This document shows, piece after piece, positions 19,388-57,711 of a stretch of DNA of 64,000 nucleotides (within the stretch, counting starts at the first letter, position 1; each line of letters starts with the position of its first letter). The notes beneath the pieces were generated by a model. It ran no database searches. It was given only the letters and a program-made list of their open reading frames with translations, and had not been told where the DNA came from. The stretch is from Nipponacmea schrenckii (lineage: Eukaryota > Mollusca > Gastropoda > Lottiidae), in the NCBI GenBank assembly GCA_030562195.1, contig JAUJPP010000006.1:186001-250000 (forward strand). The letters run 5' to 3'. The position numbers and the translations under genes were made by a program.

Positions 19388-19525
19388 ATGGTAGTACCCT
19401 ACTGAGGAAAATCCCGTCATAATTAGCCTAATGACGAGTTAATTAAGGACTTGTGGGACCATCTGGTATTTTTCCCAGTCATTAGAACACCTGTACTTTC
19501 TATTGATATAAGTATTACCGGTCCA
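19388..19525. mobile_element. Partial copy of the palindromic MITE found at 40.15-40.39 kb
   Basis: AGTCATTAGAACACCTGTAC and the ending ATAAGTATTA match the right arm of the 247-bp palindrome at 40148-40394. Upstream, TAGTACCCTAC, GAGGAAAA and TTAAGGACTTGTGGGAC match its centre. The left arm is missing. Confidence 0.65.
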
Positions 19526-28329: not shown

Positions 28330-29005
28330 GAAATGACAACCTTTAGAATTTTAAATGATATTCTCTTAAGCAAAAATAATGTACAGTTGAGAGGACTAGT
28401 GGTATAAGGGACGGAACTCTATAAAATACTCTCTTAAAGATGTAAAGCCGCGCTGTTAATTTGATGGCTCTATGTTATACCATGGCAACTTGCCCCAAAT
28501 TGCAGGATCTAATGTTCCTACTACACCTAAATTAAGATTGATAAATAAACAAATTAAAAGTATCAACGATCTGGAAAGTTAATTTAATCCGAGATCAATT
28601 TGTAATCTCAAATAAGGTGTTATGTCCCACAAATTTGTTTTTTCGACGTTTTGTTTTACACACTAATTAAACAGATAAAAATGTTACAAGAAGAGTTAAG
28701 AAGATAATGTATCAGGTCATAAAGTCAAATTGTGTTAATTTCTTATCGTTTGGTCAAGACAAATTTTGACATTTCCAGTATAAGTATCGCAACCAATCAA
28801 AACATGTCATTATACTGAGTAGGCGTGGTTACGTTCTATTTTAAATGACAGCCAGGAGATATAACAAATTCTAAATATCTCGGAAGCTGCACAATTGTTA
28901 CAAACAGGTCTAGTTATTATTATGGAATTGGATATTATAAATGCAACGTTTCACCCATGCAATAGAAGGGACGCGCACTGCCTTGGTACCGTCTAACGGT
29001 TCTAG
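28330..29005 (+). mobile_element. F1 Helentron-like element, 3' part, plus strand
   Basis: Ends GCGCACTGCC, then a hairpin ACCGTCTAACGGT, then TCTAG at 29002-29005. It is the same sequence as the 3' ends at 34212 (plus) and, inverted, at 37127 and 53106. The 5' part is lost in the gap. The next element's 5' tip starts one or two bases later, so the copies sit head to tail. Confidence 0.75.
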
Positions 29006-30648
29006 TTGCAGTGCGTTCTTTGAACGCACTGCTTTGTTTTCGAAATGACTATTTTTTTTTTTTTTTGTCTTTTTCTGGTCACGCTCCCCAGCCATAACTG
29101 CAAATGTCTTACACAATCTGGCGTGATATTGTGACGTAATCTAGTGCTCGTTGTTGTTTAAATGTAAAATGACGCATTTTTGTTTTACCGGAAATGACGT
29201 AGAACGTCACAAATTTTATTTTTGTTTACTAACTCACGGCTCGTTTTTTTATCTAATCTGGTTCGGACTTTTTTTTTTTACTACTTATAACTTAGATTTA
29301 CAGAATAGCAGTTTAAAAATTTTGAAATTTTTACTTTTGTTGGTGACTTTTGAATTTTAAAATTTAACACTTTTTCTAATTTCTGAAATTTTGATTAGAT
29401 CGAAATCAAACTTTGCAGTTAGATAAACATTTTTCTTGTCAAGAAAAATCTGTTTTCAAAATATCGACATCACTTCCGGTTTCGGCGTCATACGTCGCTA
29501 AACTTCGAATTTTTACTTCCGGAATTCTAAAGATATTTGAATTTTTTTTTTTGCAATTAGTTACTATTAACCTATAATGATTTTATAATTAACAAAAATT
29601 GAACCGGAAGTAACAGGTCAGTCGCCATCATTAAACCACTTACTTTTGTAAAGTGAAAAATTGGGCCTTGGGGTTTAATCGGACAATTGTTATTTTGATG
29701 TCTATGTAATCTTCAATCGATTGCTAACAATTCTTAGGAAGCCGAATTTTGAATTTCGATTTAGCTTACCTTTCATTTCCGGTTCTTTTTTTTCACTCAG
29801 TGCCTAATTTTCCAACGTTCATATATCGTGACCTTGACCTTTGGTGACCATGTGACCTGCACAAAAGTTGTTGCCCTTGTCGAGATCTATCCATTGATGT
29901 CTTCATTTGTGGTGTGCAAATGTCAAATTCCGGTTTTACAGCCATTTGAAAATTGCACTTTTTAACTTCGAAGAGCTCTGTCACGTGACCTAATTTGCAT
30001 ACGTCAAAATTTCTTTTATGTCCTTATTACGCGTAATTTATTCTTTTCAATGGTGTATAACACTTTATATTTTGATCAAAATTGCGCTTTTTAATATTTG
30101 AAAATTTTGTTCTTAGTTCTATATTAATTGTGCGTGATTTATGAAAAAGAACGTGTTTTTTTTTCAAATTTACGTCTTATTTTTTCACAAAAATTGGTAG
30201 ATGAGTAGACAAAAAATTATCATTAAAGATTCCGATAAAAAATTTCCGAAATTAGCCGGAAATGTCCGAAAATGGCCAAAAAATGTAGAAAATCACAGAA
30301 ATCGGAATTTTCGGATTAAATTTTTGCACAAACATGCAATTTTATTATTCCACAGAATTAGTACCATCAATATCTGTATTTTGTATGTATGCCGTATATG
30401 CAAATTCCTAACCGTTTGATCGCCATCTTGAAATATGTAAATTATTGGAAAAATACTACTCGTCCGCCATTTTTTCTCCTATTTTTTTCAGACTTGTTTT
30501 AAAATATAATTTGGATAATTATCTATGTCCTCTAGTGGCATATTTTTCAATTTCAAATTTGTCTTTGGACCAGGTCCTGCCAAAGTTTTTCAAACTGACT
30601 TCCGTTTGAAAGTTCATAACTTTTGAACTCTACCATATGCATCCTTTT

Positions 30649-30870
30649 GATCTCAAAACAACATCACCAAAGAGGCACTGTACTGGAATCCCCAAGGTCA
30701 TAGAAGGCAAGGACGACCTTCACATAGCTTGAAAAGAAAAAGACTGAAAGAGCTAGGAAAGAGGCAAGACCTGGAATGAAGCAAAAAGAACAGCTCATAA
30801 CAGAGTGAGATGGAGAACGTCTGTAGCAGCCATATGCTCCGCAAGGAACGAAGAGGACTAACTTACTAAT
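30649..30870 (+). pseudogene. RTE-type LINE 3' fragment, flanked by ATGCATCCTTT repeats
   Basis: Reads ALYWNPQGHRRQGRP, then after frameshifts NEAKRTAHNRVRWRTSVAAI with CSARNEED and a stop at 30859-30861. This is the typical C-terminus of RTE-clade reverse transcriptases. It is flanked by a direct repeat ATGCATCCTTT (30637 and 30871), a likely target-site duplication. The same fragment in the same site occurs inverted at 51.2 and 55.7 kb. Confidence 0.8.
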
Positions 30871-31986
30871 ATGCATCCTTTATTTTTCTGAACAATCATC
30901 TTCATTGGCGAAAGGTTCATATGATACCTTGATTTCTAATTTTAGTAAAGAACATTTGGTTTAATGGGGATCCAAAAATTGGTAATTTGCATATTTCTCG
31001 TATCTTCAGATGGTTATATCTCATGAACAAGGCTCTTGGCAACATTCTAATTGACATTATTGTGATGTGATTTTCACCAGCTTTCTAACAATATCTTTAT
31101 TTTAGCTATAGACCGAAAACTGTTGAAAATACGCCTAGTAGAAAATAAGCGATTTTAACATTCATATTTTTTTATATTTAGTTCTATTTAACTTAAAAAC
31201 AAAATTCGAACAGATTTATAATGTGCAAATTCCCAGCTTTCAAGCAATATATAAATCAATATGTATAAATAAAAACTGCGAAACGTTTAAGAATAAAATT
31301 ACACTCTAATTAAACAGATATAAATGCAACAGGTCATAAAGTCTGATTGTGTTAATTTCTTATCTTTTGGTCCAGACACAAATTTTGACATTTCCAGTTA
31401 TCCCAACCAATCAAAACAAGTCATTAGACTTTGTGGGCGTGGTTAAGCCCAGATATTTTACATCACTGTGTGTATTTTTCTTTCAATCGAAAATAGGGTC
31501 TCGGAGGATCAGTCAATATGTGTTATTTTGATGTACATGTATATAGAATCCATAACCGATTGCGTGGTTAAGCCTAGATATTTTTACATCACAAACCTTA
31601 ATGATTGCCAGTCTATTAACAAGCTCAAATGTCACGTGTTAAATCATGAATAAATCATCTCTCCAAATAAATGCAAAATCAATCTACATTCTATCCTTAA
31701 ATGACAGCCAGGAGACCAACAAATTCTAAATAGCTCGAAAGCTGCAGAACTGTTACAAACAGGTCTAGTTATTCTTTCCGATGGTGTATAACACTTGATA
31801 TTTGATCAAAATTGCACGTTTAAAATATGCAAATTTTGTAATTTCTTCTATACTAACTGTGTATTTTTCTTTAAATCGAAATAGGGTCTCGGAGGTTAAT
31901 TCAATTTGTGTTATTTTGATCTACATGTATATAGAATCTATACCGATTGCCGAAATATATATGGAAACCGATTTTTGAATTGTTAT

Positions 31987-32032
31987 TGCGTGGCAAATAA
32001 AATTTGTCACGCTTTGTTTTCGTTCGGATTAT

Positions 32033-32063
<31 letters not shown>

Positions 32064-33393
32064 GGGAAGCTCGCTAGCCCAAACGGAAAAAGATAGACTA
32101 TTTCTGTTTTCACCAATGGTTTTTATATGGGCTGGAATCAAAAATGAATATCTAACATGAAATTTTCGCTAAACCGAAAGTGGCTAATTGCATAATATGC
32201 AAATAAGATTTCAAGCTAGCTCGGGCCCTAATAGTCGGATCGGTCTGAAATTTACAGGATATAGATAGATAGGCAGCGCAATTAAAACTACATCATCAAA
32301 ATTTTTTGATCACTTCCGGTTTGGGCGTGGGGACTTCCGGTTTTTTCGTCTCATGTCGGGCGACCCTGCTTCCCATGTAATTCAAGAATCTAAACAAAAA
32401 CAGTATATTTAAGCTATACTAAATGATTTTAATCCCCTGAGATGAAGAAAAATTAAATTGAATGTTGCGCATGCGCAGTTTTCAAAAATGGCAAATTTTC
32501 TTAAAAATTTAATAAGTCCGCCAACTATTGACTGATTTTTATGATTTTGGTGTCTATCAAAACCTTGATACTTTATCTAAAAAATGTTCGGAACAGAATT
32601 TTGATTTTCGAATTTGAATTTTTTTATGCCCGTTCGAATTTTTCAAAAATTTAAAACTCTATATCTCGTGACCTTGACCTTCAATGACGTTGACATTTGA
32701 GATGTAGAATGTCCTTGACCTCAGCTGTCTATAGATGTGCTGATATTGCATGACAAATATTAACTTCCGGTTTTATAGCCCACCGAAATCTGACTATTTT
32801 GCAATTTTGGACGGTTATATTACACTTTCGGGCTCTAATGTTCGGATCGATCTGAAATTTACAGGATATAGATAAATACGCAACACAATACAAAATATAT
32901 CATCAAAATTTTTTGATCACTTCCGGTTTGGGCGTGGCGACTTCCGGTTTTTTATCTCATTTCAGGCGACCCTACATCCCGTGTAATTCAAGAATGTAAG
33001 CAAAAACAGTATATATTAGCTAAACAAAATAATTTGTATCCCCCGAGAAGAAAAAAATTCTAATTGCTAGTTGCGCATGCGCCATTTTTCCGAGAATGGC
33101 AAATTTTCTTTAAAATTTAATTAGTCCGTCATTTATTATTTATGCCCGTTTGAATTTTTTAAAAATTTGAAATTCTAAATCTTGTGACCTTCACCTTCAA
33201 TGACCTTGAAATTTTCCATATAGAATGGCCTTGACATCAGCTGTCTATAGATCTAACAATATTGTTACGCTTGTTCCACAATTGGAGGCTGAAAAGTAAC
33301 GGAATTGAAAGCTAGCAGGTTAGAAGTTTCAAAATGTTCGAAATCCATGGGATAACGCATAGTTGCCACGCTCGGAGATGTTCACAGTTCTAG
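31987..33393 (+). mobile_element. F2 Helentron-like element nested in F1, plus strand
   Basis: The 5' tip TGCGTGGCAAATAAAATTTG, then TCACGCTTTGTTTTCG, is followed by a T-run and GGGAAGCTCGCTAGCCC. The 3' end is TTGCCACGCTCGGAG, then a hairpin near TGTTCACAG, then CTAG (33390-33393). The GCGTGGCAA at the 5' tip is inverted as TTGCCACGC near the 3' end. The F1 copies at 37.9 and 54.4 kb lack it and show an uninterrupted TTGAATTGTTG/TTTTGATTTT site, which defines both ends. 1,407 bp, non-coding. Confidence 0.8.
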
Positions 33394-34212
33394 TTTTGAT
33401 TTTAATTTTTTTACGATTAAAAATTAATCCAGTTAGAATGATTCAAAGATATTATATATCTTAAATAAAAGGAATGATTGTTCATTTCTCGTTGTGGGCG
33501 ATGTATGATATGGAATATTTGGAAGGAAATTACAAACTTTAGAATTTTAAATGATATTCTCTTGAGCAAAAATAATGTACAGTTGAGTGGAATAGTGGTA
33601 TAAGGGACGGAACTCTATAAAATACTCTCTTAAAGATGTAAAGCCGCGCTGTTAATTTGATGTCTCTATGTTATACCATGGACACTTGCCACAAATTGCA
33701 GGATCTAATGTTCCTACTACACCTAAATTAAGATTGATAAATAACAAATTAACAAGTATCAACGATTTGGAAAGTTAATGAAATCTGATATCAATTTGTA
33801 ATCTCAAATAAAGTGTTATGTCCCACAAATTTTTTTTATCGACGTTTTGTTTTACACACTAATTAAACAGATATAAATGTTACAAGAAGAGTTAAGAAGA
33901 TTATGTAACAGGCCATAAACTCAAATTGTGTTAATTTCTTATCGTTTGGTCAAGACACAAATTTTGACATTTCCAGTTTAAGTATCGCAACCAATTAAAA
34001 CAAGTCATTATACTGAGTAGGCGTAGTTCTTTTTTAAATGACAGCCAGGAGATATAACAAATTCTAAATATCTCGGAAGCTGCACAACTGTTACAAACAG
34101 GTTATATTATATTATAATAGTTATTATTATGGAATTGGATATTATAAATGCAACGTTTCAACCATGCAATAGAAGGGACGCGCACTGCCTTGGTACCGTC
34201 TAACGGTTCTAG

Positions 34213-35774
34213 TTTGTTTTTTTTCGGGAAGCTCCCTAGCTCAACTCGAAAATGGTATTGTAATTTGGTTTGAAGAATGCGATAAGATACGTACTGGAAT
34301 CGCAAATGAATGTTTATAACTATAATTTTTAGGCATCGTAAGTGAGAAATTGCATAATAATAATTGAATAATTGCATAACTTTGTTGCTTATTATCCGAT
34401 CGCTTTGAAAATTACAGAATATAGAGAATTCGCCTATAGAAATAAAAATACATCATAAAAAACTTTCTACCACTTCCGGTTTTTGCGTGAGAACTTCCGG
34501 TTTTTCAGAACCACATTGGGTGACCCAACCTCCGGTGTATGTAAGAAATTAGTACAAAAGCTATACATATAAAATATCAGGCATAATTAGAACCCAATTA
34601 GAGGAAAAAATTCTAACCGGAAGTTAAACCTTATGTGTTATCACAGAACGGTGTCAAAATTTAGCAACATTTTAATAAGTCCGCTAATTTTTCTCCGATT
34701 TGTACGATTTTGGTGTTTTTTGAAACCTTGTTACTTTATCTACAATTTGTTGAGAACAGAATTTTCATTTTCAAATTTAATTTTTTTTTAAGCCCGATTG
34801 ATTTTTTAAAAAAATTAAAAGGCTATATCAAATGACCTTGACCTTCAATGACCCTGAATTTTTACAAGTAGAATGTTATTGACATTAGCTATCCACATGT
34901 AGGATGAATATTTATAACTAAAATTTTTATGCATCGGAAGTGAGAAATTGCATAATAATAATTGAATAATTGCACAACTTTGTTGCTAATTATCCGATCG
35001 CTTTGAAAATTACAGAATATAGAGAAGTCGCCTATAGCAATAAAAAGACATCATAATTTTTTTTTTTTTAAAAAGGCTATAGGCGAAATAGGAGTGGCGC
35101 TCTATGAAAGGATAGAAGTACCAACTGGTCCAAAGACCATAACGAAATGGGAGGGGGCTTTATGAATAGTGAGTATCAACCAAAGGCCATAGGAAAAGGT
35201 ATGCCTGGATATATGCTTATTCTTTTCATACCTTCTTTCAAACCCTATAGGCCAATTTTCTTATTATCTCAGAACATTTAGACTCAAGACACTAATATGT
35301 TCACAATATTTGTTGCAAATTTAAATCAATCTCAACGCTTCCTTCCAGCTTAAAACATATGCTCCCTACGAGTTTATATAAAAACACTGTTATATATTGT
35401 ATGTTTCCATTACGTCTTGCTTATGCAGTTACTTTTCACAAAGTACAAGTTTTGAGTTTAGATAGAGGCGTAATATCACTTCATAAGATATTCCAAGCTG
35501 GTCAAGCCTATGTTGCGTTTACATCAGTAAAGAAATTCCGTCACGTACGTACACATACCTGTTTATTATAGCTACCATGAAGCTATAAAAATAACCATAA
35601 GATAACGTTATATGGATACAAAATTGAGTCTACCCGTTCATGAGCAAGTAGTTTGGCTGTTTACTAAAAGTGGTCGAGTGAACACCTTGCTTTAGAGGGT
35701 TTGAATTTCCAAAAGGTTTCAAAGCCATGATCCAAAGTATCACGGGCCACGCTCAGTGCTGTTCACAGCTCTAG
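34213..35774 (+). mobile_element. F2-type element with helicase remnant, 5' tip missing
   Basis: Starts directly behind the CTAG of the preceding F1 with TTTGTTTTTTTTCGGGAAGC, so it has the T-run and subterminal part but no 5' tip. Ends GGGCCACGCTCAGT, hairpin GCTGTTCACAGC, TCTAG at 35774. A Pif1-like helicase C-terminus lies 200 bp inside the 3' end. It is the only copy in the window with protein sequence of rolling-circle transposon type. Confidence 0.65.
35359..35571 (+). pseudogene. Pif1-like (Helitron-type) helicase C-terminal fragment
   Basis: The frame encodes [20 protein letters not shown], then [20 protein letters not shown] and SVKKFRHVR. It matches the last helicase motifs of the Pif1/RecD-like family (usual form PLRLAYAxTIHKSQGxTLD, then GQAYVALSRV). 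The usual KSQG is KVQV and the arginine of SRV is lost (TSVKK), so motor function is not expected. The N-terminal part of the helicase and the Rep domain are missing. Its position 200 bp before a CTAG end fits a RepHel C-terminus. A host PIF1 pseudogene is a less likely alternative. Confidence 0.75.
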
Positions 35775-37084: not shown

Positions 37085-40000
37085 TTAAAGGGATAATAGG
37101 CCTTATTATGATAATAATAATAATAACTAGAACCGTTAGACGGTACCAAGGCAGTGCGCGTCCCTTCTATTGCATGGGTGAAACGTTGCATTTATAATAT
37201 CCAATTCCATAATAATAACTAGACCTGTTTGTAACAATTGTGCAGCTTCCGAGATATTTAGAATTTGTTATATCTCCTGGCTGTCATTTAAAATAGAACG
37301 TAACCACGCCTACTCAGTATAATGACTTGTTTTGATTGGTTGCGATAATTAAACTAGAATGTCAAAATTTGTCTTGACCAAACGATAAGAAATTAACACA
37401 ATTTGACTTTTTGCCCTGTTACATTATCTTCTTAACTCTTCTTGTAATATTTATATCTGTTTAATTAGTGTGTAAAACAAAACGTCGAAAAAACAAATTT
37501 GTGGTCTAAGGGACATAACACCTTATTTGAGATTACAAATTGATCTCGGATTAAATTAACTTTCCACATCGTTGATACTTTTAATTTGTTTATTTATTTA
37601 TTTATCAATCTTAATTTAGGTGTAGTAGGAACATTAGATCCTGCAATTTGTGGCAAGTTGCCATGGTATAACATAGAGCCATCAAATTAACAGCGCGGCT
37701 TTACATCTTTAAGAGAGTATTTTATAGAGTTGCGTCCCTTATACCACTAGTCCTCTCAACTGTACATTATTTTTGCTTAAGAGAATATCATTTAAAATTC
37801 TAAAGGTTGTCATTTCCTTCCAAATATTCCATATCATACATCGCCCACAACGAGAAATGAACAATCATTCCTTTTATTTAAGATATATAATATCTTTGAA
37901 TCATTTTAACTGGATTAATTTTTAATCGTAAAAAAATCAAAATCAAAACAACAATTCAAAAATCGGTTTCCATATATATTTCGGCAATAGATTCTATATA
38001 CATGTACATCAAAATAACACAAATTGAATTATCTTCCGAGACCCTATTTCAATTTAAAGAGTTAGTATAGAAGAAATTACAAAATTTGCAAATTTAAAAC
38101 GTGCAATTGGGATCAAAAATCAAGTGTTATACACCATTGGAAAGAATAACTAGACCGGCTTGTAACAGTTCTACAGCTTTCGGGCTATTTAGAATTTGTT
38201 GGTCTCCTGGCTGTCATTTAAGGATAGAATGTAGATTGATTTTGCGATTATTGGGAGAGATGATTTATTCATAATTTAACACGTAACATTTGAGCTTGTT
38301 AATAGACTGGCAATCATTAAGGTTTGTGATGTAAAAATATCTGGGCTTAACCACGCCCACAAAGTCCATTGACTTGTTTTGGAAACTTCAACTGGAAATG
38401 TCAAAATTTGTGAATTGACCGTTTTATAGGAAAAATTCGCAATTTTTAAATGCCGATAAACCGAAAGTTTACATTATTCTATAAAGCTTAATATGTCATT
38501 GGATAGAACGTATCACATATGTACAGGTATAAAGATCGCCAAAGGTCAACGTCACAATATACACCTTCGAAGTTTTTATAATTTTTAATCGTAATTAAAT
38601 CAAAATCAAATTAAAAAATCAAAAATCAGTTTCCATATAAATTTCGGCAATCGGTTATAGATTCTATATACATGTCTATCAAAATAACACATATTGACTG
38701 ATCCTCCGAGACCCTATTTCGATTGAAAGAAAAATACACACAGTGATGTAAAATATCTGGGTTAAACCACGCCCACAAAGTCTAATGACTTGCTTTGATT
38801 GGTTGAGACACTTTAACTGGAAATGTCAAAATTTGTGTCTTGACCAAAAGATAAGAAATTAACACAATCAGACTTTATGACCTGTTGCATTAATATCTGT
38901 TTAATTAGAGTGTAATTTTATTCTTAAACTTTTCGCAATTTTTATTTATACATATTGATTTATATATTGCTTGAAAGCTTGGAATTTGCACATTATAAAT
39001 CTGTTCGAATTTTGTTTTTAAGTTAAATATAACTAAATATAAACTAGAGCCACATGTGGCACAGAGTGGGACTTTGCTAATGTTGCAAATTGCAAGCAAC
39101 TTTGATGAAACATGTATGTAACTATTTTGAATATTTGAATAAATAGTGTTTGAAAAAAGGTATCTCCTTTATTGAAGAGTTCTACTTTTAGCGTGCCTGG
39201 AACGGTTCCGAGAACGGTTGTCACTCGACAACGTAAACCTCCAGTAATAACATATGTATGATAGTATAAAGCAATAGTAATTATAAACGGAAACGTTAAG
39301 TTTCGTTTTACAGGTCTTGATAAAAGCAGTTTGGCATGATGCGGCAAGTTAAACAAATCCACCGTCATAACCTTAGTTCACAAATATAAAAAAACAAAGG
39401 CATTTGTAGCAAATTGAAATGTAAACCTAAATTAACTAAATTATGCAATATAAACACTAAATGACAACCTACACTCCAGCAATAACATAGTATAAAGCAA
39501 TAGTAATCTAAAATAATCATTAATTGCTCTTAATAAGAACACAAATTTACAAAATTCCAGCGAACTACGTGTCATCAAAAACGGATGCCTTTGGGCTGTG
39601 ACAAACTAATAGAATTCTTTTGATGTCTAGATCAAAGAATGCACTTGGAAACTTTGTTCATATTCACCAATTGATAATACACAGTCAGTTAATGACCAGT
39701 TGATATTACTCAATGAAAACTTCAACTGTTCAAATAAGCCAACATGTAATATAAACTATCAAGCTATCGAATTTCGCATGGCTGTTTAACTGGGTCTATT
39801 CATTGGAGTTGAAAAACGAAAACACTGATGGATATCCCCGGATATTAGCCCACTGCTCAAGAAAGAACAAGGTTATCCATAGTCATGATCAAAAATAAGA
39901 GAAATAAGGAAGTTATAAAACCTGTTCCCTTTTTGAACTAAAAGGCTGACATTATTGATTGTTTCAAACAAATCAACCAAATTAATGATGAACATCTGTG

Positions 40001-40147
40001 CAAAGTCCTATTATGAACTATTTTGCGGAAGTTATGAACCAAACTCCATAAGTATGCAATCAGGATACAACCCAAATGTGTCACGCCCATTCGAAAATAT
40101 TTTAAAGATGCATTCCCTTCTTTTAATTGAAAAAAAAATAAAAATGG

Positions 40148-40394
40148 TAATACTTACATAAATAGAGAGTAGAGGTGTTCTAATGACTTGGAAAAATAGT
40201 AGCTTGTCTCACAGGTCCTTAGTTAAGTCGTAATTAAGCTATTTACGACAAGGATTTCCTCTTTAGTACCCTACATTACCATTCAAAAGAGGAAAACCTT
40301 GCTGTAATTCGCTTAATTAAGACTTAACTAAGGACCTGTGAGACAAGCTACTAGTCATTAGAACACCTCTACTCTCTATTTATGTAAGTATTAG
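40148..40394. mobile_element. Palindromic MITE, 247 bp, inside F3
   Basis: TAATACTTACATAAATAGAG at the left is inverted as CTCTATTTATGTAAGTATTA at the right. The inner parts (AGCTTGTCTCACAGGTCCTT and its inverse) continue the stem almost to the centre near 40275. Non-coding. A half copy lies at 19388-19525. Confidence 0.8.
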
Positions 40395-40629
40395 CCTTTT
40401 CATTTTCATCAATGAAAACAAGGGAAGCCATCTTTAAATGTAATCAATTGGTATAAATATGTCAATATATATTCAAAATTTGAAGCATCTACATGAGATA
40501 TACACACCATAAAGGTGAAAAAAACGAAAATACAAAAATTGGAAAAATGGAAATTCTAAAACCCGTTCCCTTTTTTGAAGCCTTTGTTCAAAATATCTGA
40601 CTTTCTGGTATAAAATGGCCAAAGCATCG

Positions 40630-40995
40630 AGGTACCTGTGTGCAAAGTACTTTTTTGAAAAACGTTATTTCCTACAGATGTAAAGCGCTGACCGATATAA
40701 ATGGTAAATGGGAAGTTTACCCGGATGTGCCACGCCCATCTCATTTTTTTGGCGTAGGTCTAATCACATTCACAATGTATATGCACGGTACAAATTTGAA
40801 GCATGTACATCTAATAGATCACGAGATATACACACATACATTTCTAAAAAACGTCAATACGGCAAAATGTACTTTTATTTTAAAAAATCAAAAATTTCAA
40901 TTTTCATTTTAAAAACCATTGTTATACATCGTTGGAAAGAGGACAAAAAGCACTTTAAGAATCTGAAAAAAATAACACTCTAAATTAATTAGGTC
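40630..40995 (-). repeat. Inverted copy of the 17.75-18.11 kb repeat
   Basis: On the minus strand it matches 17742-18110 (GGATGTGCCACGCCCATCTC, CGTTGGAAAGAGGACAAAAA, GTGTGCAAAGTAC on the plus strand here). Non-coding. Part of the F3 body. Confidence 0.7.
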
Positions 40996-45820: not shown

Positions 45821-45857
<37 letters not shown>

Positions 45858-45898
45858 ATTTCGAAAACAAAGCAGTGCGTTCGATAGAACGCACTGCA
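43632..45898 (-). mobile_element. F1c Helentron-like element, minus strand, complete ends
   Basis: Starts CTAGAGCCGTACGCCTAACG, then GCACTGAAGCAGTGCGTTCC. The far end is AAGCAGTGCGTTCGATAGAA then CGCACTGCA (45898). The inverted match between tip and subterminal sequence is exact over 11 bases (GCAGTGCGTTC/GAACGCACTGC). The 3' hairpin differs from F1a/F1b (GCCGT...ACGGC with a 7-base loop). 2.27 kb, non-coding. Confidence 0.75.
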
Positions 45899-45917
45899 AA
45901 AAAAAAAAAAAAAAAAA

Positions 45918-48419
45918 CTAGAACTGTGAACAGCTCCGAGCGTGGCAACTATGCGTTATCCCATGGATTTCGAACATTTTGAAACTTCTAACCTGCTAGC
46001 TTTCAATTCCGGTACTTTTCAGCCTACAATTGTAAGCGTAAACCTTCCGCTATAGAGGCAATTTTTTCTACTATAAGTTTCTACTATCAGTTCCTTATTA
46101 GATTTTTGTACATGTCTAAGATTTCGGTAGGATATTTACATAAATTCCAAACCAAATTTTAAGTAGGTAGTAAGATGACAATTTGTCATGAAATTTAAAC
46201 TCTCTATATTCAAATTTAAACATTATTTTGTAACTTTGGTTGTAATTAACATAGAGAGAAAATTCAAGCTATGTGATAATTTGCTTATTCACAGCTTTAT
46301 AAAGAGATATTTTTTGAATTTGTATGCAAAAATTTTACAAAAAAATAAATTTTATTAGGGTTATCAGATTATATCATTAGATTAATTTACTCTTTGGCCA
46401 CCTGTGTGCGTTGAACCGTGACTAAAGTGGTCAATAGTTCATCTGTGTTTTATAAGACTTATATGTCTGCTACTCTTCACATGCCTGTATTTGACATTTT
46501 TTTTATAAAATCATTTCTATTTAAGATACGAACAAAATTCGAACTGATCAATGACAAGCGAATTTACTTCTTTAACTTGATGCATGTTTTGAATTTGAAT
46601 GGAAATATTTTAAGAAATTACATAATCAGATTAATTTGTTCCCCAGCTCAGTGATTTGACAAGTAGGTGTGAAAATTTAAACCACCAGTTTTACTGACAT
46701 GTTATATAACAGCCTTTAACACCCTGACTGATCAATTTGAAACAGATTTTATGAAATAAAAAACCCAAAATTGGTATTTATTTTGTTAATTTATCTAAAA
46801 TTAATGCTTAAATTTTCATGGTAAAACGACCATGTCGCATATCATTTAAGAGACAATTTAATTTGGAGTCCAATGATGTATACCACATTGATGTGGGATG
46901 AATATATTTTATGTTAGTACTGGAGTTGTAAAATTTAATTTTGCTTTTTTAAAATATGCTTCTGCACTTTTGGCATATATCCTTTATTGAAGAGTTTTGA
47001 GGCTATTATAAAACAGAAAATCTCAAGTCAATGTGTTCATAAGGAAATGTAATATTGCCGTTCAAAGTTTCAAAAATGTCAGAATTCGGTTGGCTATAAA
47101 ACCCAGAAGTTGATATTTTTCATTCAATATTGTCATGTCTATAGACAGCTGAGGTCAAGGCCATTCTATATGGAAAATTTCAAGGTCATTGAAGGTGAAG
47201 GTCACAAGATATAGAATTTCAAATTTTCAAAAAATTCAAACGGGCATAAAATAAATTTATGTTCGAAAATCAAAATTCTGTTTCAAACATCCTTTAGATA
47301 AGGGAGCAAGGTTTTGATAGATACCAAAATCATACAAATCGGATAATAAATGACGGACTAATTAAATTTTAAAGAAAATTTGCCATTCTCGGAAAAATGG
47401 CGCATGCGGAACTAGCAATTGGAATTTTTTTCTTCTCGAGGGATGCAAATTATTTTGTATAGCTAATATATACTGTTTTTGCTTACATTCTTGAATTACA
47501 CGGGATGTAGGGTCGCCTGAAATGAGATAAAAAAAACCGGAATCCCCACGCCCAAACCGAAAGTGATCAAAAAATTTTGATGATATATTTTTAATTGTGT
47601 TGCGTATCTATCTATATCCTGTAAATTTCAGATCGATCCGAACATTAGAGCCCGAAAGTGTAACATAACCGTCCAAAATTGCAAAATAGTCAGATTTCGG
47701 TGGGCTATAAAACCGGAAGTTAATATTTGTCATGCAATATCAGCACATCTATAGACAGCTGAGGTCAAGGACATTCTACATCTCAAATGTCAAGGTCATT
47801 GAAGGTCAAGGTCACGAGATATAGAGTTTTAAATTTTCGAAAAATTCGAACGGGCATAAAAAAAATTCAAATTCGAAAATCAAAATTCTGTTCCCAACAT
47901 TTTTTAGATAAAATAGCAAGGTTTCGATAGACACCAAAATCATAAAAATCGGTTAATAATTGGCGGACTTATTAAATTTTTAAGAAAATTTGCTATTTTT
48001 GAAAACTGCGCATGCGCAACATTCAATTTAATTTTTCTGCATCTCAGGGGATTAAAATCATTTAGTATAGCTAAAATATACTGATTTTGTTTAGAATCTT
48101 GAATTACATGGGAAGCAGGGTCGCCCGACATGAGACGAAAAAACCGGAAGTCTCCACGCCCAAACCGGAAGTGATCAAAAAATTTTGATGATGTAGTTTT
48201 AATTGCGCTGCCTATCTATCCATATCCTGTAAATTTCAGACCGATGCGACTATTAGGGCCCGAGCTAGCTTGAAATCTTATTTGCATATTATGCAATTAG
48301 CCACTTTCGGGTTAGCGAAAATTTCATGTTAGACATTCAATTTTGATTCCAGCCCATATAAAGACCATTGGTGAAAACAGAAATAGTCTATCTTTTTCCG
48401 TTTGGGCTAGCGAGCTTCC

Positions 48420-48472
<53 letters not shown>

Positions 48473-48558
48473 GAACGAAAACAAAGCGTGACAAATTTTA
48501 TTTGCCACGCAAATAATCCGAACGAAAACAAAGCGTGACAAATTTTATTTGCCACGCA
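45918..48558 (-). mobile_element. F2b Helentron-like element, minus strand, duplicated 5' tip
   Basis: Starts CTAGAACTGTGAACAGCTCC. The far end has the tip AAAGCGTGACAAATTTTATT then TGCCACGCA twice in tandem (48465-48511 and 48512-48558, period 47). The A-run at 48421-48469 separates the tip from the body. Non-coding. Contains AAGGTCA and ACCGGAAGT blocks shared with F2a. Confidence 0.75.
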
Positions 48559-48580
48559 AAAAAAAAAAAAAAAAAAAAAA

Positions 48581-49677
48581 CTAGAATTGCTTACAATTAT
48601 GAACGTATTTCGAGAGCCTTAAAATATTATGTAGGCTAAATTTGCAATTACCTACATCTAGACAATATATTAAATATCATTTGACCTAGTTTTCAAACTC
48701 ATAAAATAATTAGGTCATACCTTCCGTAACGGTTAAAAATGGCGAAAATATGAAAATTATCAATTTTTGCTGCATTAAAGTACACTTATCTCTGTGAATT
48801 TTTTAAGTAAGCCAAATAAAAATATACCTACTCGTAGACAATATATTGAATATTATTTGACTTAATTTTCAAGGTCATAGATTAAGTGGGTCACACCTTC
48901 CGTAGCCGTTAAAGTGACCTAATTTTGAAAAAATCGAAATTTGAATAATTCGAAAAAAAAATACGAAATTTAAAAATCGGCCTCCAAGAAAAGGTAGATA
49001 ATGATCCAATGTATCTATGTGCTAAATTTCATCGAAATCGGTCTATCAATAGTGTCTGAATTTCGGATTTAAGAATTGTAACGAAAATTCAAAATGGCGG
49101 CCGATATGGCAGCTTGACCTAATTTTTTAGGTCAAATCGATTACTATTGACAAGTTATTTATAAAACAGTTTTCACTTTTCACCTAGCTGTTATAGACCA
49201 GAAGTTACGTAATTACGTCATTTGAGACTAAATCGGAAGTGGAATTTTTTTTTTCAAAATTTTTCAAAAATTATAATCATATCGCCTATCAACTGGTAAA
49301 GTTTCACAATTTTACCATTTATATTAAACGAGAAATCACGGTCTGAAATTTTTGCCGATGACCCTTGAATATTGAATTGCAAATCGTGGGTAAAATATTT
49401 AACCTAATTGCATACAACCTATAATTGTTAGTTGACAAATACATTGAAGTTTTCAAATCTGAAAATCAGGTCAAAATCGAAGAGAAAATAAACTTGCTAA
49501 CGAAAAAAAACCTCAACTTCCGGTTCTCACTTCCGGTCAGAGATAGAACTTCCGGTTTTGTTTTATTTGATAATAGAAATCATTCTAAGATCAACTGTAA
49601 ATTTAGAATTTCTGTACCTTTTACCAGTTTGTCTACAAACTCATCCAAGAATCGCAAAAAAAAAAAAAAAAAAAAAA
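48581..49677 (-). mobile_element. F4a Helentron-like element, minus strand, no 5' tip
   Basis: Starts CTAGAATTGCTTACAATTAT (hairpin AATTG-CTTA-CAATT), then GAACGTATTTCGAGAGCC. It ends in an A-run that meets the CTAG of F4b. About 90-95% identical to F4b by eye. Non-coding. Confidence 0.75.
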
Positions 49678-50882
49678 CTAGAATTGCTTACAATTATGAA
49701 CTATTTCGAGAGCCTTAAAATATTATGTAGGCTAAATTTGCAATTACCTACATCTAGACAATATATTGAATATCATTTTACCTAGTTTTCAAAGTCATTA
49801 AATAATTAGGTCACACCTTCCGTAACGGTTAATGAAGGCGAAAATATGAAAATTATCAATTTTTGCTGTATTTAAGTACACTTATCTCTATGAATTTTTT
49901 AAGTAAGCCAAATTAAAAAATATCTACTCGTAGACAATATATTGAATATTATTTGACCTAATTTTCAAGGTCATAGATTAAGTGGGTCACACCTTCCGTA
50001 CCCGTTAAAGTGACCTAATTTTGAAAAAATCGAAATTTAAATAATTCGAAAGAAAATACGAAATTTGAAAATCGGTCTCCAAGAAAAGGTAGATAATGAT
50101 CCAATGTATCTATGTGTTAAATTTCATCAAAATCGGTCTATCAGTAGTGTCTGAATTTCGGATTTAAGAATTGTAACGAAAATTCAAAATGGCGGCCGAT
50201 ATGGCAGCTTGACCTAATTATTTAGGTCAAATCAATTACTATTGACAAGTTATTTATAAAACAGTTTTCACTTTTCACCTAGCAGTTATAGACCGGAAGT
50301 TACGTAATTACGTCATTTGAGGCTAAACCGGAAGAGGAATTTTTTTTTCACATTTTTTCAAAAATTATAAACATATCGCCTATCAACTGGTAAAGTTTCA
50401 AAATTTTACCATCTATATTAAAGGAGAAATCACGGTCTGAAATTTTTGTTTTGCCGATGACCCTTGAATATTGAATTGCAAATCGTGGGTAAAATATTTA
50501 ACCTAATTGCATAAAACCTATAATTGTTAGTTGACAAATACATTGAAGTTTTCAAATCTGAAAATCCGGTCAAAATCGAACTGAAAATAAACTTGCTAAA
50601 GCAAAAAAAAACCTGAACTTCCGGTTCTCACTTCCTGTCAGAGATAGAACTTCCGGTTTTGTTTTATTTGATAATAGAAATCATTCTAAGATCAACTGTA
50701 GATTTAGAATTTCTGCACCTTTTACCAGTTTGTCTGCAAACTCATCCAAGAATTACAAAAAAAAAAAAAAAAAAAAAAATAAAATAATCCGAACGATTAC
50801 AATACGTTTTCGCCAAAGTCGAAATACGTAATAAAATAATCCGAACGATTACAATACGTTTTCGCCAAAGTCGAAATACGTA
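49678..50882 (-). mobile_element. F4b Helentron-like element, minus strand, duplicated 5' tip
   Basis: Starts CTAGAATTGCTTACAATTAT. The far end carries the tip TTCGCCAAAGTCGAAATACG then TA twice (period 52, ending 50830 and 50882). Tip TACGTATTTCGA and subterminal TCGAAATA.GT are inverted to each other (exact ACGTATTTCGA/TCGAAATACGT when compared with F4a). Non-coding. Confidence 0.75.
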
Positions 50883-51231
50883 AAAAGACAAACCGAAAAC
50901 AAACTGGGACTTTGCGGTAGTCCCACAAAAAAATATGAATGTTAAAATCGCTTATTTTCTTCTAGGCGTATTTTCATCAGTTTTCGGTCTATAGCTAAAA
51001 TAAAGATATTGTTAGAAAGCTGATAAAAATCACATCACAATAATGTCAATTAGAATGTTGCCAAGAGTCTTGTTCATGAGATATAACCATCTGAAGATAC
51101 GAGAAATATGCAAATTACCAATTTTTGGATCCCTATTAATCCAAATGTTCTTTACTAAAATTAGAAATCGAGGTATCATATGAACCTTTAGCCAATGAAG
51201 ATGATTGTGCAGAAAAATAAAGGATGCATAT

Positions 51232-51453
51232 TAGTAAGTTAGTCCTCTTCGTTCCTTGCGGAGAATAGGGCTGCTACAGACGTTCTCCATCTCACTCTGT
51301 TATGAGCTGTTCTTTTTGCTTCATTCCAGGTCTTGCCAATCCTTCCTAGCTCTTTCAGTCTTATTCTTTTCAAGCTATGTAAAGGTCTTCCTTGTCTTCT
51401 ATGCCCTTGGGGATTCCAGTCCAGTGCCTCTCTGGTGATATTGTTTTGAGATC
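51232..51453 (-). pseudogene. RTE-type LINE 3' fragment, copy in F1a
   Basis: Inverted copy of 30649-30870 in the same site, between two AAAGGATGCAT repeats. It encodes the WNPQG..RQGRP segment and the NEAKRTAHNRVRW segment on the minus strand, with frameshifts. It was carried along when F1 multiplied. Confidence 0.75.
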
Positions 51454-53667
51454 AAAAGGATGCATATGGTAGAGTTCGAAAGTTATGAACTTTCAGACGG
51501 AAGTCAGTTTTGAAAAACTTTGGCAGGACCGTAATAGGAACATGAAAGAAATTTCGACGCGATTTTCAAATGGCTGTAAAACCGGAAGTTGACATTGCAC
51601 AACAAAAATGAAGACATCAATAGATAGGTCTTGACAAGGGCAATAACTTTTGTGCAGGTCATAAGGTCACCAAAGGTCAATGTCACGAGATATTGACCTT
51701 CGAAATTTAGGTACGTATTGAAAATATAGAACCGGAAATAAAGGAATAGCTAAATCGAAATTCAAAATTCGACTGCCTGATATTTGTTAGCAGTCGATTG
51801 AAGATGACATAGACATCAAAATTACAGTTGTCCGTTTAACCCCTAAGGCCCCATTTTTCGTTTTACAAAAGTTAGTCATTTCATGATAGCGGTTTAAGTG
51901 TTACTTCCGGTTCAAATTTTTTCACTTTATTATCTTTCTTTATCATGTTCTATCATATTTATTGACGAATTTGACGCCTTTCGTAAAAATACGTAATTTA
52001 AAAAAACACGTGCTCTTTTATTAATCACGCACAATTACTATAGAACTTAGAACAAAATTTTCAAATTCTCAAAAGCGCAATTTTGATCAAAATATCAAGT
52101 GTTATACATCATTGGAAAGAATAGATTACGTGTAATAAGGGCATGAAAGAAACATTGACGTATGTAAATTGGGTCACGTGACAGAGCTCTTCAAAGTTAA
52201 AAATTGTGATTTTCAAATGGCTGTAAAACCGGAAGTTGACATTGCACATCAAAAATGAAGACATCAATAGAAAGGTCTTGACAAGGGCAAGAACTTTTGT
52301 GCAGGTCACAAGGTCACCAAAGGTCAAGGTCACGAGATATTAACCTTCGAAAATTAGGCACTTGGTGAAAAAATATAACCGGAAATAAAGAAAAAGCAAA
52401 ATCGAAATTCAAAATTCGGCTTCCTGAGAATTGTTAGCAATCAATTGAAGATTACATAGACATCAAAATTACAATTGTTAGATTAACCCCTAAGGCCCCA
52501 TTTTTCGTTTTACAAAAGTAAGAAGTTTAATGATGGCGGCTGACCTGTTACTTCCGGGTCAATTTTTGTTAATTATTGAATCATTATGGGTTAATAGTAA
52601 CTAATTGCAAAAAAAAAATTTCAAATATCTTAATTATTCCGGAAGTTGATTTTTCAAGTTTAGAGTCGAATGACGTCAAAACCGGAAGTGATGTTGTTAT
52701 TTTGAAAACATATTTTAGTTGACAAACGCATTGTCTATCAACATATTAATTTTTATTTCGATCAGATCAAAATTCTGAAAGTTAGAAAAAGTGTTAAATT
52801 TAAAAATAAAAAAGTCAGCGACAAAAGTCAAAATTTTACATTTTTTAAATTGCTATCCTTTAGAGTTTAGTTCAAAGAAGTTAATAAGAAAAGTTTGAGC
52901 GAAATTCGATTTGAAATAGAGCTGTTATATGAGAAAAAACTAAAATACTTTGGGATGTTATACCTCATTTCCGGTTTGGCAAAATTGCGTCATTTTATAT
53001 TTAAATAACAATGAGCACTAGTTTACGTTAGAATATCGCGTCAGATTATGTGAGACATTTACAGTTATAGCTGGGGAGCGTGACCAGAAAACGAAAAAAA
53101 AAAAACTAGAACCGTTAGACGGTACCAAGGCAGTGCGCGTCCCTTCTATTGCATGGGTGAAACGTTGCATTTATAATATCCAATTCCATAATAATAACTA
53201 GACCTGTTTGTAACAATTGTGCTGCTTCCGAGATATTTAGAATTTGTTATATCTCCTGGCTGTCATTTAAAGAGAACGTAACCACGCCTACTCAGTATAA
53301 TGACTTGTTTTGATTGGTTGCGATACTTAAACTGGAAATGTCAAAATTTGTCTTGACCAAACATAAGAAATTAACACAATTTGACTTTATGACCTGTTAC
53401 ATTATCTTCTTAACTCTTCTTGTAACATTTATATCTATTTAATTAGTGTGTAAAACAAAACGGCGTAAAAACAAATTTGTGGTCTAAGGGACATAACACC
53501 TTATTTGAGATTACAAATTGATCTCGGATTAAATTAACTTTCCAGATCGTTGATACTTTTAATTTGTTTATTTATTTAGTAGTAGTAGGAACATTAGATC
53601 CTGCAATTTGTGGCAAGTTGCCATGGTATAACATAGAGCCATCAAATTAACAGCGCGGCTTTACATC

Positions 53668-54140
53668 TTAAAGGGATAATAGGCGTTAGAATACACTCGT
53701 CCTACGGCTTATATTTGTGTTTCATATTGACTATTAGTTAATAAGTATGCATCCCACACTTTACCAAATTTTAAAAAGCCACAATAAAAATATATTCGAA
53801 ATTTTAAAAAAAAGTGAGCCAGCGACGATTCCATTCAGTTTGAGAATAAAAGCGTCTGGTAAATCAACACTAAAACATCATTGTGGAATTCAACAGTAGG
53901 GGTCAAGGACGCGTGAAAACTCACATGTTAGAGTTACTTCCCTCTATATTTACACGATTTGAAAATCGCTTGATGGATGGCTCAAGCGTTTTATGATTAA
54001 CTACTTTATTTTGGGGATTTATCGGATTTTAGAGGGATTTTGATGTATAGGTAAGTCCACTGATGGATATATACTGTTATTGTCCAAATTTGAGTGAACT
54101 TAAAATTTTATGTTCGTTCTAACGCCTATTATCCCTTTAA
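53668..54140. mobile_element. TTAA-flanked MITE inside F1b, 470 bp
   Basis: TTAAAGGGATAATAGGCGTT at the left is inverted as AACGCCTATTATCCCTTTAA at the right (the pairing continues to AGAA/TTCT). The other F1 copies read uninterrupted ACATCTTTAAGAGAG here. One T fewer is present than a clean TTAA duplication predicts. No transposase. Confidence 0.85.
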
Positions 54141-55741
54141 GAGAGTATTTTATAGAGTTCCGTCCCTTATACCACTAGTCCTCTCAACTGTACATTATTT
54201 TTGCTTAAGAGAATATCATTTAAAATTCTAAAGGTTGTCATTTCCTTCCAAATATTCCATATCATACATCGCCCACAACGAGAAATGAACAATCATTCCT
54301 TTTATTTAAGATATATAATATCTTTGAATCATTTTAACTGGATTAATTTTTAATCGTAAAAAATCAAAATCAAAACAACAATTCAAAAATCGGCAATAGA
54401 TTCTATATACATGTACATCAAAATAACACAAATTGAATTATCTTCCGAGACCCTATTTCAATTTAAAGAGTTAGTATAGAAGAAATTACAAAATTTGCAA
54501 ATTTAAAACGTGCAATTTTGATCAAATATCAAGTGTTATACACCATTGGAAAGAATAACTAGACCGGTCTGTAACAGTTCTGCAGCTTTCGGGCTATTTA
54601 GAATTTGTTGGTCTCCTGGCTGTCATTTAAGGATAGAATGTAGATTGATTTTGCGATTATTGGGAGAGATGATTTATTCATGATTTAACACGTAACATTT
54701 GAGCTTGTTAATAGACTGGCAATCATTAAGGTTTGTGATGTAAAAATATCTGGGCTTAACCACGCCCACAAAGTCCATTGACTTGTTTTGGAAACTTCAA
54801 CTGGAAATGTCAAAATTTATGAATTGACCGTTTTATAGGAAAAATTCGCAATTTTTAAATGCCGATAAACCGAAAGTTTACATTTTGCTATAAAGCTTAA
54901 TATGTCATTGGATAGAACGTATCACATATGTACAGGTATAAAGATCGCCAAGGTCAACGTCACAATATACACCTTCGAAGTTTTTATAATTTTTAATCGT
55001 AATTAAATCAAAATCAAATTAAAAAATCAAAAATCAGTTTCCATATAAATTTCGGCAATCGGTTATAGATTCTATATACATGTCCATCAACATAACACAT
55101 ATTGACTGATCCTCCGAGACCCTATTTCGATTGAAAGAAAAATACACACAGTGATGTAAAATATCTGGGTTAAACCACGCCCACAAAGTCTAATGACTTG
55201 TTTTGATTGGTTGAGATACTTTAACTGGAAATGTCAAAATTTGTGTCTTGACCAAAAGACAAGAAATTAACACAATAAGACTTTATGACCTGTTGCATTT
55301 ATATCTGTTTAATTAGAGTGTAATTTTATTCTTAAACTTTTCGCAATTTTTATTTATACATATTGATTTATATATTGCTTGAAAGCTGGGAATTTGCACA
55401 TTATAAATCTGTTCGAATTTTGTTTTTAAGTTAAATAGAACTAAGTATAAAAAAAATATGAATGTTAAAATCGCTTATTTTCTACTAGGCGTATTCTCAT
55501 CAGTTTTCGGTCTATAGCTAAAATAAAGATATTGTTAGAAAGCTGATAAACATCACATCACAATAATGTCAATTAGAATGTTGCCAAGAGTCTTGTTCAT
55601 GAGATATAACCATCTGAAGATACGAGAAATATGCAAATTACCAATTTTTGGATCCCTATTAATCCAAATGTTCTTTACTAAAATTAGAAATCGAGGTATC
55701 ATATGAACCTTTAGCCAATGAAGATAAAATAAAGGATGCAT

Positions 55742-55965
55742 ATTAGTAAGTTAGTCCTCTTCGTTCCTTGCGGGGAATAGGGCTGCTACAGACGTTCTCC
55801 ATCTCACTCTGTTATGAGCTGTTCTTTTTGCTTCATTCCAGGTCTTGCCAATCCTTCCTAGCTCTTTCAGTCTTATTCTTTTCAAGCTATGTAAAGGTCT
55901 TCCTTGTCTTCTATGCCCTTGGGGATTCCAGTCCAGTGCCTCTCTGGTGATATTGTTTTGAGATC
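55742..55965 (-). pseudogene. RTE-type LINE 3' fragment, copy in F1b
   Basis: Third copy of the same fossil fragment in the same ATGCATCCTTT site, nearly identical to 51232-51453. Confidence 0.75.
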
Positions 55966-57711
55966 AAAAGGATGCATATGGTTGAGTTCGAAAGTTATGA
56001 ACTTTCAGACGGAAGTCAGTTTTGAAAAACTTTGGCAGGACCGTAATAGGAACATGAAAGAAATTTCGACGTATGTAAATAAGGTCACGTGACAGAGCTC
56101 TTCAAAGTTTGAAATTGCGATTTTCAAATGGCTGTAAAACCGGAAGTTGACATTGCACAACAAAAATGAAGACATCAATAGATAGGTCTTGACAAGGGCA
56201 ATAACTTTTGTGCAGGTCATAAGGTCACCAAAGGTCAATGTCACGAGATATTGACCTTCGAAATTTAGGTACGTATTGAAAATATAGAACCGGAAATAAA
56301 GGAATAGCTAAATCGAAATTCAAAATTCGACTGCCTGATATTTGTTAGCAGTCGATTGAAGATGACATAGACATCAAAATTACAGTTGTCCGTTTAACCC
56401 CTAAGGCCCCATTTTTCGTTTTACAAAAGTTAGTCATTTCATGATAGCGGTTTAAGTGTTACTTCCGGTTCAAATTTTTTCACTTTATTATCTTTCTTTA
56501 TCATGTTCTATCATATCTATTGACGAATTTGACGACTTTCGTAAAAATACGTAATTTAAAAAAACACGTGCTCTTTTATAAATCACGCACAATTACTATA
56601 GAACTTAGAACAAAAGTTTCAAATTCTCAAAAGCGCAATTTTGATCAAAATATCAAGTGTTATACATCATTGGAAAGAATAGATTACGTGTAATAAGGGC
56701 ATGAAAGAAACATTGACGTATGTAAATTGGGTCACGTGACAGAGCTCTTCAAAGTTAAAAATTGCGATTTTCAAATGGCTGTAAAACCGGAAGTTGAAAT
56801 TGCACATCAAAAATGAAGACATCAATAGAAAGGTCTTGACAAGGGCAAGAACTTTGTGCAGGTCACAAGGTCACCAAAGGTCAAGGTCACGAGATATTAA
56901 CCTTCGAAAATTAGGCACTTGGTGAAAAAATATAACCGGAAATAAAGAAAAAGCAAAATCGAAATTCAAAATTCGGCTTCCTGAGAATTGTTAGCAATCA
57001 ATTGAAGATTACATAGACATCAAAATTACAATTGTTAGATTAACCCCTAAGGCCCCATTTTTCGTTTTACAAAAGTAAGTAGTTTAATGATGGCGGCTGA
57101 CCTGTTACTTCCGGGTCAATTTTTGTTAATTATTGAATCATTATGGGTTAATAGTAACTAATTGCAAAAAAAAAAAAATTCAAATATCTTAATTATTCTG
57201 GAAGTTGATTTTTCAAGTTTAGAGTCGAATGACGTCAAAACCGGAAGTGATGTTGTTATTTTGAAAACATATTTTAGTTGACAAACGCATTGTCTATCAA
57301 CATATTAATTTTTATTTCGATCAGATCAAAATTCTGAAAGTTAGAAAAAGTGTTAAATTTAAAAATAAAAAAGTCAGCGACAAAAGTCAAAATTTTACAT
57401 TTTTTAAATTGCTATCCTTTAGAGTTTAGTTCAAAGAAGTTAATAAGAAAAGTTTGAGCGAAATTCGATTTGAAATAGAGCTGTTATATGAGAAAAAACT
57501 AAAATACTTTGGGATGTTATTCCTCATTTCCGGTTTGGCAAAATTGCGTCATTTTATATTTAATAACAATGAGCACTAGTTTACGTTAGAATATCGCGTC
57601 AGATTATGTGAGACATTTACAGTTATAGCTGGGGAGCGTGACCAGAAAACGAAAAAAAAAAAAAAATAGTCATTTCGAAAACAAAGCAGTGCGTTCGAAG
57701 AACGCACTGCA

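Follow-up and report, generated by a model that had tools for sequence, protein, structure and literature searches.

Helentrons and the Helentron-associated interspersed elements (HINEs) are described as carrying palindromic subterminal inverted repeats (subTIRs) and a 3' palindrome, inserting into T-rich targets with the addition of a T, and having a Rep-helicase-endonuclease partner protein (PMC4067079). Elements of the Helitron2 group have a 5' hairpin, asymmetric repeats and a TTTT target, and pairing between their 5' and 3' repeats is proposed to open the 5' hairpin and set the end point (PMC3627910); oyster HINEs are also covered in PMC11136912. We analyzed a 64,000-nucleotide window of the genome of the gastropod Nipponacmea schrenckii (C6:186001-250000, contig JAUJPP010000006.1, in an assembly of 399 Mb and 1093 contigs). 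Within positions 28330-57711 of this window we found twelve Helentron-type copies belonging to four families, F1 to F4, each of which closes with a subterminal repeat, a hairpin and TCTAG, followed by T. The window is about 67% A+T and contains 1.6% N in two 500-N gaps, one of which (27830-28329) lies immediately upstream of the element cluster on the + strand. Nesting of the elements in one another's 5' T-runs is the main organising fact of the locus; it was not part of an earlier sequence-only reading of this DNA, whose Helentron-like assignment is supported. With high confidence, the locus as a whole is best explained by HINEs of at least four families, which insert between T and T (T/T), nest in 5' T-runs and would move by a rolling-circle process driven by a Helentron protein.

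A complete element begins with a 5' palindrome of about 25 nt. Next come a linker that is largely common to the families (TTTGTTTTCG or a relative), then a T-run and a body without an intact gene; the element finishes with the first arm of the palindrome in inverse form, the hairpin and TCTAG. The TTTGTTTTCG linker and T-run at 29033..29066 (+) exemplify an uninterrupted putative landing pad, and an occupied one is seen at 48421..48532 (-), where an F2 linker is followed by a second F2 tip with its own linker and T-run. Nine tips were located in the window, all of them palindromic and those of F2-F4 imperfectly so; they form 11 pairs in F1, 11 including one G-T in F2, seven in F3, and nine with a bulge in F4. 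The sequence-only reading had the tips share a following stretch, which holds insofar as the TTTGTTTTCG linker is mostly common; its version of this stretch in F4, an inverted GTTTTCG, has to be replaced by ATTGTAATCG followed by TTCGGATTATT, the latter as in F2.

The twelve 3' ends lie at 29005, 33393, 34212 and 35774 on the + strand and at 53106, 49678, 48581, 45918, 43632, 41874, 39044 and 37127 on the - strand, bearing out the earlier count of at least eleven elements ending in a hairpin, CTAG and T. An exact stem of at least 4 nt is present in 11 of the 12 hairpins, with one broken pair in the twelfth (33393). As a sole criterion, a hairpin before CTAG was rejected: it produces many chance cases among the 118 CTAG per strand, and the hairpin/CTAG filter also returned two further sites at 60246 and 49187. 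The discriminating feature of these ends is the subterminal repeat, which is CGCACTGC in F1 (GAACGCACTGC in a short copy, F1s), TTGCCACGC in F2 (GCCACGC in the copy F2'), AGTCCCAC in F3 and TCGAAATACGT in F4 (TCGAAATA in one copy). That each family carries the inverse of its tip just inside the hairpin proved correct at all 12 ends, where the tip of the same family gives the longest inverse word (7-11 nt, versus 3-7 nt for other families); these are not 12 independent tests, because only six end sequences are distinct. Among about 19,600 random 62-mers from the window per family, 8 nt was reached in 0.1-1.6%, a rate inflated by the contribution of the elements themselves to the sampled window. 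The two arms of the tip are unequal in F2, F3 and F4, and in all three families the 3' repeat copies the first arm and not the second. Furthermore, DNA folding of hand-cut segments gave a stronger duplex between first arm and 3' repeat than within the tip hairpin in four of five sets (F1s, F2, F3 and F4). From family to family, tip and subterminal repeat change together, in line with the co-variation that the sequence-only reading had anticipated. Its proposal that the two co-evolve as a recognition pair may be right, but it stays conditional and is not new, because matched family-specific ends are expected of any transposon and such pairing has been published for Helitron2 (PMC3627910).

The arrangement of these elements is best seen on the - strand. 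Here a complete F1 copy, A (53106..57710, 4605 bp, tip 57710, end 53106), continues at its end directly into the T-run and body of a second F1 copy, B (37127..53105, 3' end 37127), which is 96.7% identical to A over 3.5 kb. The body of B, which comes after A, is interrupted by a nest that reads from 50926 to 39044, with tips as opening and 3' ends as closing brackets, as F3( F4( F4( )F4 )F4 F2( F2( )F2 F1( )F1 )F2 )F3. Its outermost member is an F3 element with 2875 bp of its own sequence (39044..50926, -, tip 50926, end 39044) and five other elements in its 5' T-run. Two of these are an outer F4 with tip and end (48581..50881, -, 1149 bp) and, in the T-run of this F4, an inner F4 (49678..50829, -, 1152 bp), the pair being 94.9% identical. 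The other three are an outer F2 (41874..48557, -, 1805 bp, tip 48557, end 41874) and, in its T-run, an inner F2 (45918..48510, -, 2593 bp) and F1s (43632..45897, -, 2266 bp), the last with tip GCAGTGCGTTCTATCGAACGCACTGC, subterminal GAACGCACTGC and hairpin GCCGT/ACGGC. A bracket parse of this kind arose by chance in 5,528 of 1,000,000 label shuffles and 816 of 1,000,000 order shuffles.

The + strand reads )F1 F1( F2( )F2 )F1 )F2'. The first end belongs to F1 copy D (28330..29005), a 3' part only, closing with ACCGTctaACGGT TCTAG; its 5' part is lost at the gap, and it is 92-96% identical to other long F1 3' parts. It is followed by the complete F1 copy C (29008..34212, palindromic tip 29008, end 34212, 3799 bp without its insert), which has in its body an F2 element with tip and end, F2c (31988..33393, +, 1406 bp). 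The last end is that of F2' (34213..35774), a 3' part with a remaining T-run, closing with GGCCACGC..GCTGTtcACAGC TCTAG and 69% identical to F2 bodies, whose tip is expected upstream of the D/C pair. Over both strands, the bracket parse needs three further tips, two of them upstream of the + strand cluster at the gap 27830-28329 and one lost.

Ten insertions could be placed, and every one of them points the same way as its host. The 5' T-run of another element is the site of eight; for three of the eight, A in B and both D and C in F2', this is partly inferred because the tip is lost or off the window, and the D/C junction could alternatively be a head-to-tail pair. The other two lie in short T stretches of element bodies. 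Two of the insertion sites have empty counterparts. Paralogous F1 copies run through the F3 site at 31158 (+) and 55466 (-) with 7 and 8 T, and the filled site in B has 7 and 3 T on either side; the F2c site is empty in B at about 37969 (-), as a 4-T stretch with one neighbouring base different, and has 2 and 4 T when filled. Comparison of empty and filled sites indicates a gain of two to three T and no other duplication. The ends fall between T and T, as had been predicted, on the strength of both empty sites and of the T found before tips genome-wide; the ends are common and precise, with nothing duplicated beyond T at the two comparable sites. We give about an even chance to the possibility that the elements insert into any poly-T and strike the 5' T-run merely for its length, without preference for one another. 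The T-rich targets of published HINEs (PMC4067079) and the two insertions in body T stretches are in its favor; against it, 12 of the 16 homopolymer runs of at least 12 in the window lie in 5' modules or junctions and the other four hold no insertion, numbers too small to decide. Alternatively, and only tentatively, we suggest that the 5' T-run is a kept landing pad: copies would carry their preferred target with them, correctly oriented, new copies would enter old copies and not genes, and families with linker and T-run in common but unlike palindromes could stack while remaining separately mobile.

Nesting of the same kind is seen across the genome, where the test of strand used F2 only, because the F1 tip is a perfect palindrome whose orientation cannot be read. 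The 25-nt F2 tip has 887 exact genomic places, against none for a reversed-pattern control. Neighbors were analyzed for 100 listed places, of which 81 remained after removal of 19 repeats on C3; among these 81, all 15 pairs within 200 bp are on the same strand (0.04 pairs expected), with a spacing of 46 to 117 nt, where 46 nt corresponds to the tip plus the linker up to the T-run. The linker followed after 5-35 nt by the F2 tip (18 nt) occurs in the same orientation at 169 places, a count that includes repeats of the C3 duplicated block, and with an inverted tip at none; 11 of 100 listed places were such repeats, and dropping them left 89. The hosts at these 89 places are F2-like in 69 cases, F1-like in 13, F3-like in six and other in one, and at least two T precede the F2 tip in every one of them, exactly two being the commonest number. 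The corresponding pattern with the F1 tip arm has 848 places. On C3, 19 of the 100 listed places of the F2 tip have a counterpart on the same strand exactly 29,626,336 bp away (1.66-9.85 Mb versus 31.28-39.48 Mb, with further pairs up to 59.2 Mb), which is probably a duplicated block in the assembly. Among the matches listed, nested F1 tips seem very dense on C5 at about 15.1-16.6 Mb, where Rep-endonuclease frames lie at 16.47-16.62 Mb. Two further families of similar layout were encountered: one at locus L068 (about 645-730), with tip AGATTTCACAATCT..AGATTGTGAAATCT and ends ..ATTGTGAAATCAC..ACTGATCAAGATCAGT TCTAG, and one at L051 (about 2900-2990), with tip GTTCCTCGC..GCGAGGAAC and then a T-run.

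Stacks of this type might also be head-to-tail concatemers, made in one event by rolling-circle replication past a skipped terminator, and not the outcome of serial insertions. Tandem Helitron arrays are known (PMC12628747), on C343 and C8 some F1 copies recur with a period of 4083-4087 bp, and, of 26 junctions read from 30 loci, 19 join an F1 end to an F1 tip as CTAG-TT-GCAG, a proportion favored by the ranking since the query contained TT; the D/C junction in the window has the same form. Nevertheless, the F3 nest draws on four families, their outer and inner ends being matched, for 19 of the 89 listed F2 tips the T-run entered is that of an F1-like or F3-like host, and CTAG-TT also precedes tips of other families (loci L068 and L074), and we accordingly consider concatemers improbable as the source of the stacks. 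Junctions of the form CTAG-TT-tip are compatible with rolling-circle transposition via a single strand or a circle.

A search for an autonomous Rep-helicase element with the same ends, as the sequence-only reading had advised, recovered one for F2, on C8, which shares the 3' end. The Pfam family Helitron_like_N has 59 matches in the genome. A frame on C14 contains Rep, PIF1 and endonuclease domains (Exo_endo_phos over the cut-off), and a frame on C8 (-), open for 2,696 aa and ending at 38230719, contains Helitron_like_N, PIF1 (1.6e-21) and Exo_endo_phos (7.9e-11). About 540 nt past the stop of the latter, at 38230176, is an F2-type 3' end, which aligns with the F2 end over the last 110 nt, with one inserted base and one substitution in the last 33 columns; an F2-like stretch (79-80%) lies directly ahead of it. 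A copy on C10 is 99.85% identical to that on C8 over 3.4 kb; 324 of 325 bases are equal up to CTAG, the sequences differ right after it, and both enter other elements' 5' modules. On the other side, C8 has an outer F2 tip at 38261252. Its T-run is occupied by a whole F2 element (38261190-38259768), and beyond this insert the sequence continues as an F2-like body (81%). The fetched C8 sequence between the outer tip and the 3' end has no exact F1-F4 end or tip on the sense strand; one-mismatch or chance-like matches occur at 38258567, 38257650, 38252276, 38251027, 38248311 and 38246706, some of them in locus L070. Judged by these alignments, F2 reads as an internal-deletion derivative of an approximately 30-kb Helentron, because the C8 Rep-endonuclease element has the F2 3' end, F2-like flanks and a probable F2 5' tip.

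The window itself provides a further link. With the C-terminal part of the C8 frame as query, tblastn found remnants of a Rep-helicase-endonuclease frame inside F2' (35317..35602, +, the sense of the element): one piece of 83 residues at 53% identity (E 2e-17) and one of 22 residues at 68%. They link a Rep-endonuclease gene directly to an element that has these ends. Pfam overlooked these remnants: a six-frame scan of 28330-57713, with X at stops, gave no family over threshold, its sole signal being a sub-threshold phage-domain match (E 0.06). Neither the F1 palindrome nor the F2 end was found in the viral contigs searched. On C5, two Rep-endonuclease copies with different flanks stop at a common TCTAG preceded by ACGCACTGC, as in F1, which is suggestive only of an F1 partner. 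Retrieval of the 3' side of 11 Rep copies showed such an end in four (two pairs, C8/C10 and C5), and a partner with the same ends was found for F2 only. Near the Rep frames, 12 of the 30 loci were scanned for exact F1-F4 tips and had none; a scan for a palindrome plus linker, covering all 30, returned a single, spurious match at an edge. At the C14 locus (L062, 3153-4996), about 2.9 kb past the Rep-endonuclease frame, lies F3-like body sequence (74-82%) that runs against the strand of the frame and is either a part of that element or a separate insertion.

The partner also bears on the class of the elements. Their 3' CTAG is consistent with the CTRR end of canonical Helitrons (PMC4067079), and pearl-like elements were formerly named miniature inverted-repeat transposable elements (MITEs) (PMC7492417). 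Yet the 5' end is TT plus a palindrome instead of TC, the target is T/T instead of A/T, two sites lack a target duplication and the partner protein has a C-terminal endonuclease domain, which makes it very improbable that these are canonical Helitrons or terminal-inverted-repeat transposons of the MITE type.

Several points do not fit the HINE interpretation as neatly. One F1 tip, that of copy B, is missing, for which recombination between T-runs, or joint movement of A and B from the tip of A, may be responsible. The insertion point is uncertain by one or two T, because T-run lengths vary and the F2c empty site differs by one base. In DNA folding, long F1 is the exception among the five sets, its first arm forming a weaker duplex with the subterminal repeat than within the tip hairpin. 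As to the partner, the 5' side of the C10 copy is broken, and the outer C8 tip is only a probable member of the 31-kb element, as its assignment follows from bracket logic across about 18 kb with local duplications and a few sequences that nearly match end motifs. The 3' hairpin of the C5 copies is weak, below the stem rule applied elsewhere, and neither F3 nor F4 could be matched to an autonomous partner. Moreover, seven of the 11 Rep copies (C14, C8:26.18 Mb and five seen in 2.5-kb pieces placed at a fixed offset) showed no such 3' end, and no 5' end was found for C14, C8:26.18 Mb and the two C5 copies.

In the mechanism envisaged, which follows the model of PMC3627910, a Helentron Rep-endonuclease would nick at T/T, one strand would be peeled off starting from the tip, and the process would stop once the subterminal repeat beside the 3' hairpin is paired with the first arm of the tip. 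Because the target is T/T on the sense strand, any copy would present later arrivals with a site that has the same orientation as itself. Such nests yield an order of insertion, clean empty sites and a strand-specific test of the T/T target (169 to 0) without experiment, and the presence in one genome of open Helentron frames and of families sharing their ends makes both the partner-passenger link and the role of tip and subterminal repeat testable. Stacking in a self-carried target would also explain the growth of such repeats into dense blocks.

The bodies of the elements show additional features. In 220-nt stretches after the T-run, clear homology is confined, among 15 pairs, to F1/F1s and F2/F2'; three pairs are modestly above the best of 200 shuffles (F3-F4, 34 versus 25; F2-F3, 30 versus 25; F1s-F4, 29 versus 26), and the remaining ten are not above it. 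Further inside, the F1, F2 and F3 bodies are 65-75% similar, and F1s is about 70-87% identical to long F1 in matched stretches. The words ACTTCCGG/CCGGAAGT and TGACCTT/AAGGTCA occur 42 and 46 times, respectively, in 27,984 bp of elements and one and four times in 34,118 bp outside them. F1-A carries an insertion of about 465 bp at 53668-54140, which has inverted ends AAGGGATAATAGGCGTTAG and TTAA on both sides and which we take, from its target, to be piggyBac-like; copies B, C and D are uninterrupted at this site. Stretches of F1-A, B and C near short repeats AAGGATGCATAT (about 30690-30880, 51210-51460 and 55740-55960) presumably resemble the 3' end of a non-long-terminal-repeat (non-LTR) retrotransposon frame. 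A segment of the F3 body (40101-40438) matches its own reverse complement at 81% over 349 columns, with related pieces at 19404-19519. Elsewhere in the window there are tandem arrays at 13142-15988, 8333-9476 and 62246-63514, with units of 29, 32 and 27 bp, the last falling in a repetitive acidic open frame of 486 aa. Open frames at 15972-17276 and 3918-4901 presumably resemble a Penelope-type reverse transcriptase and the RNase H end of a long interspersed nuclear element.

Among described systems, HINE-Mo and Helentron-Mo of the mite Metaseiulus have palindromic subTIRs 2-4 nt from the 5' end with an inverse copy before the 3' palindrome, a T-rich target, an extra T and a Rep-helicase-endonuclease partner, as do the elements described here; they differ in their sequences, and here the T-run of the 5' module is the main observed nesting site and several families are stacked at one locus (PMC4067079). 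The Helitron2 group, for example Helitron-1N1_CRe, similarly has a 5' hairpin, asymmetric inverted repeats, a 3' hairpin and insertion after TTTT, and the idea of 5'/3' repeat pairing with compensatory changes was published for it (PMC3627910). Unlike Helitron2 without an endonuclease, our elements fall on the Helentron side, because the partner has an endonuclease domain. Cg_HINE of Crassostrea gigas, with 11 elements described in one genome, combines a 5' subTIR, a complementary inverted repeat and a simple repeat with a 3' subTIR and palindrome and an oligo-T target; in contrast to its mostly 4-nt microsatellites and satellite-like arrays, the elements here have a plain T-run and long, partly repeated bodies (PMC7492417). 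FoHeli of Fusarium oxysporum shares self-insertion, nested copies and several 5' termini in a row, but lacks an endonuclease, has the target TNAT/T in two subgroups and shows few nested cases against hundreds of places here (PMC5148889). In the parts of the Helentron, Helitron2 and HINE literature covered, with subscription papers mostly outside it, we did not meet the 5' T-run as a main nesting site. The layout, the T target and the pairing of tip and subterminal repeat are already published, which makes these new families of an established kind of element, and the landing pad in the form of a self-carried T-run is their least familiar part.

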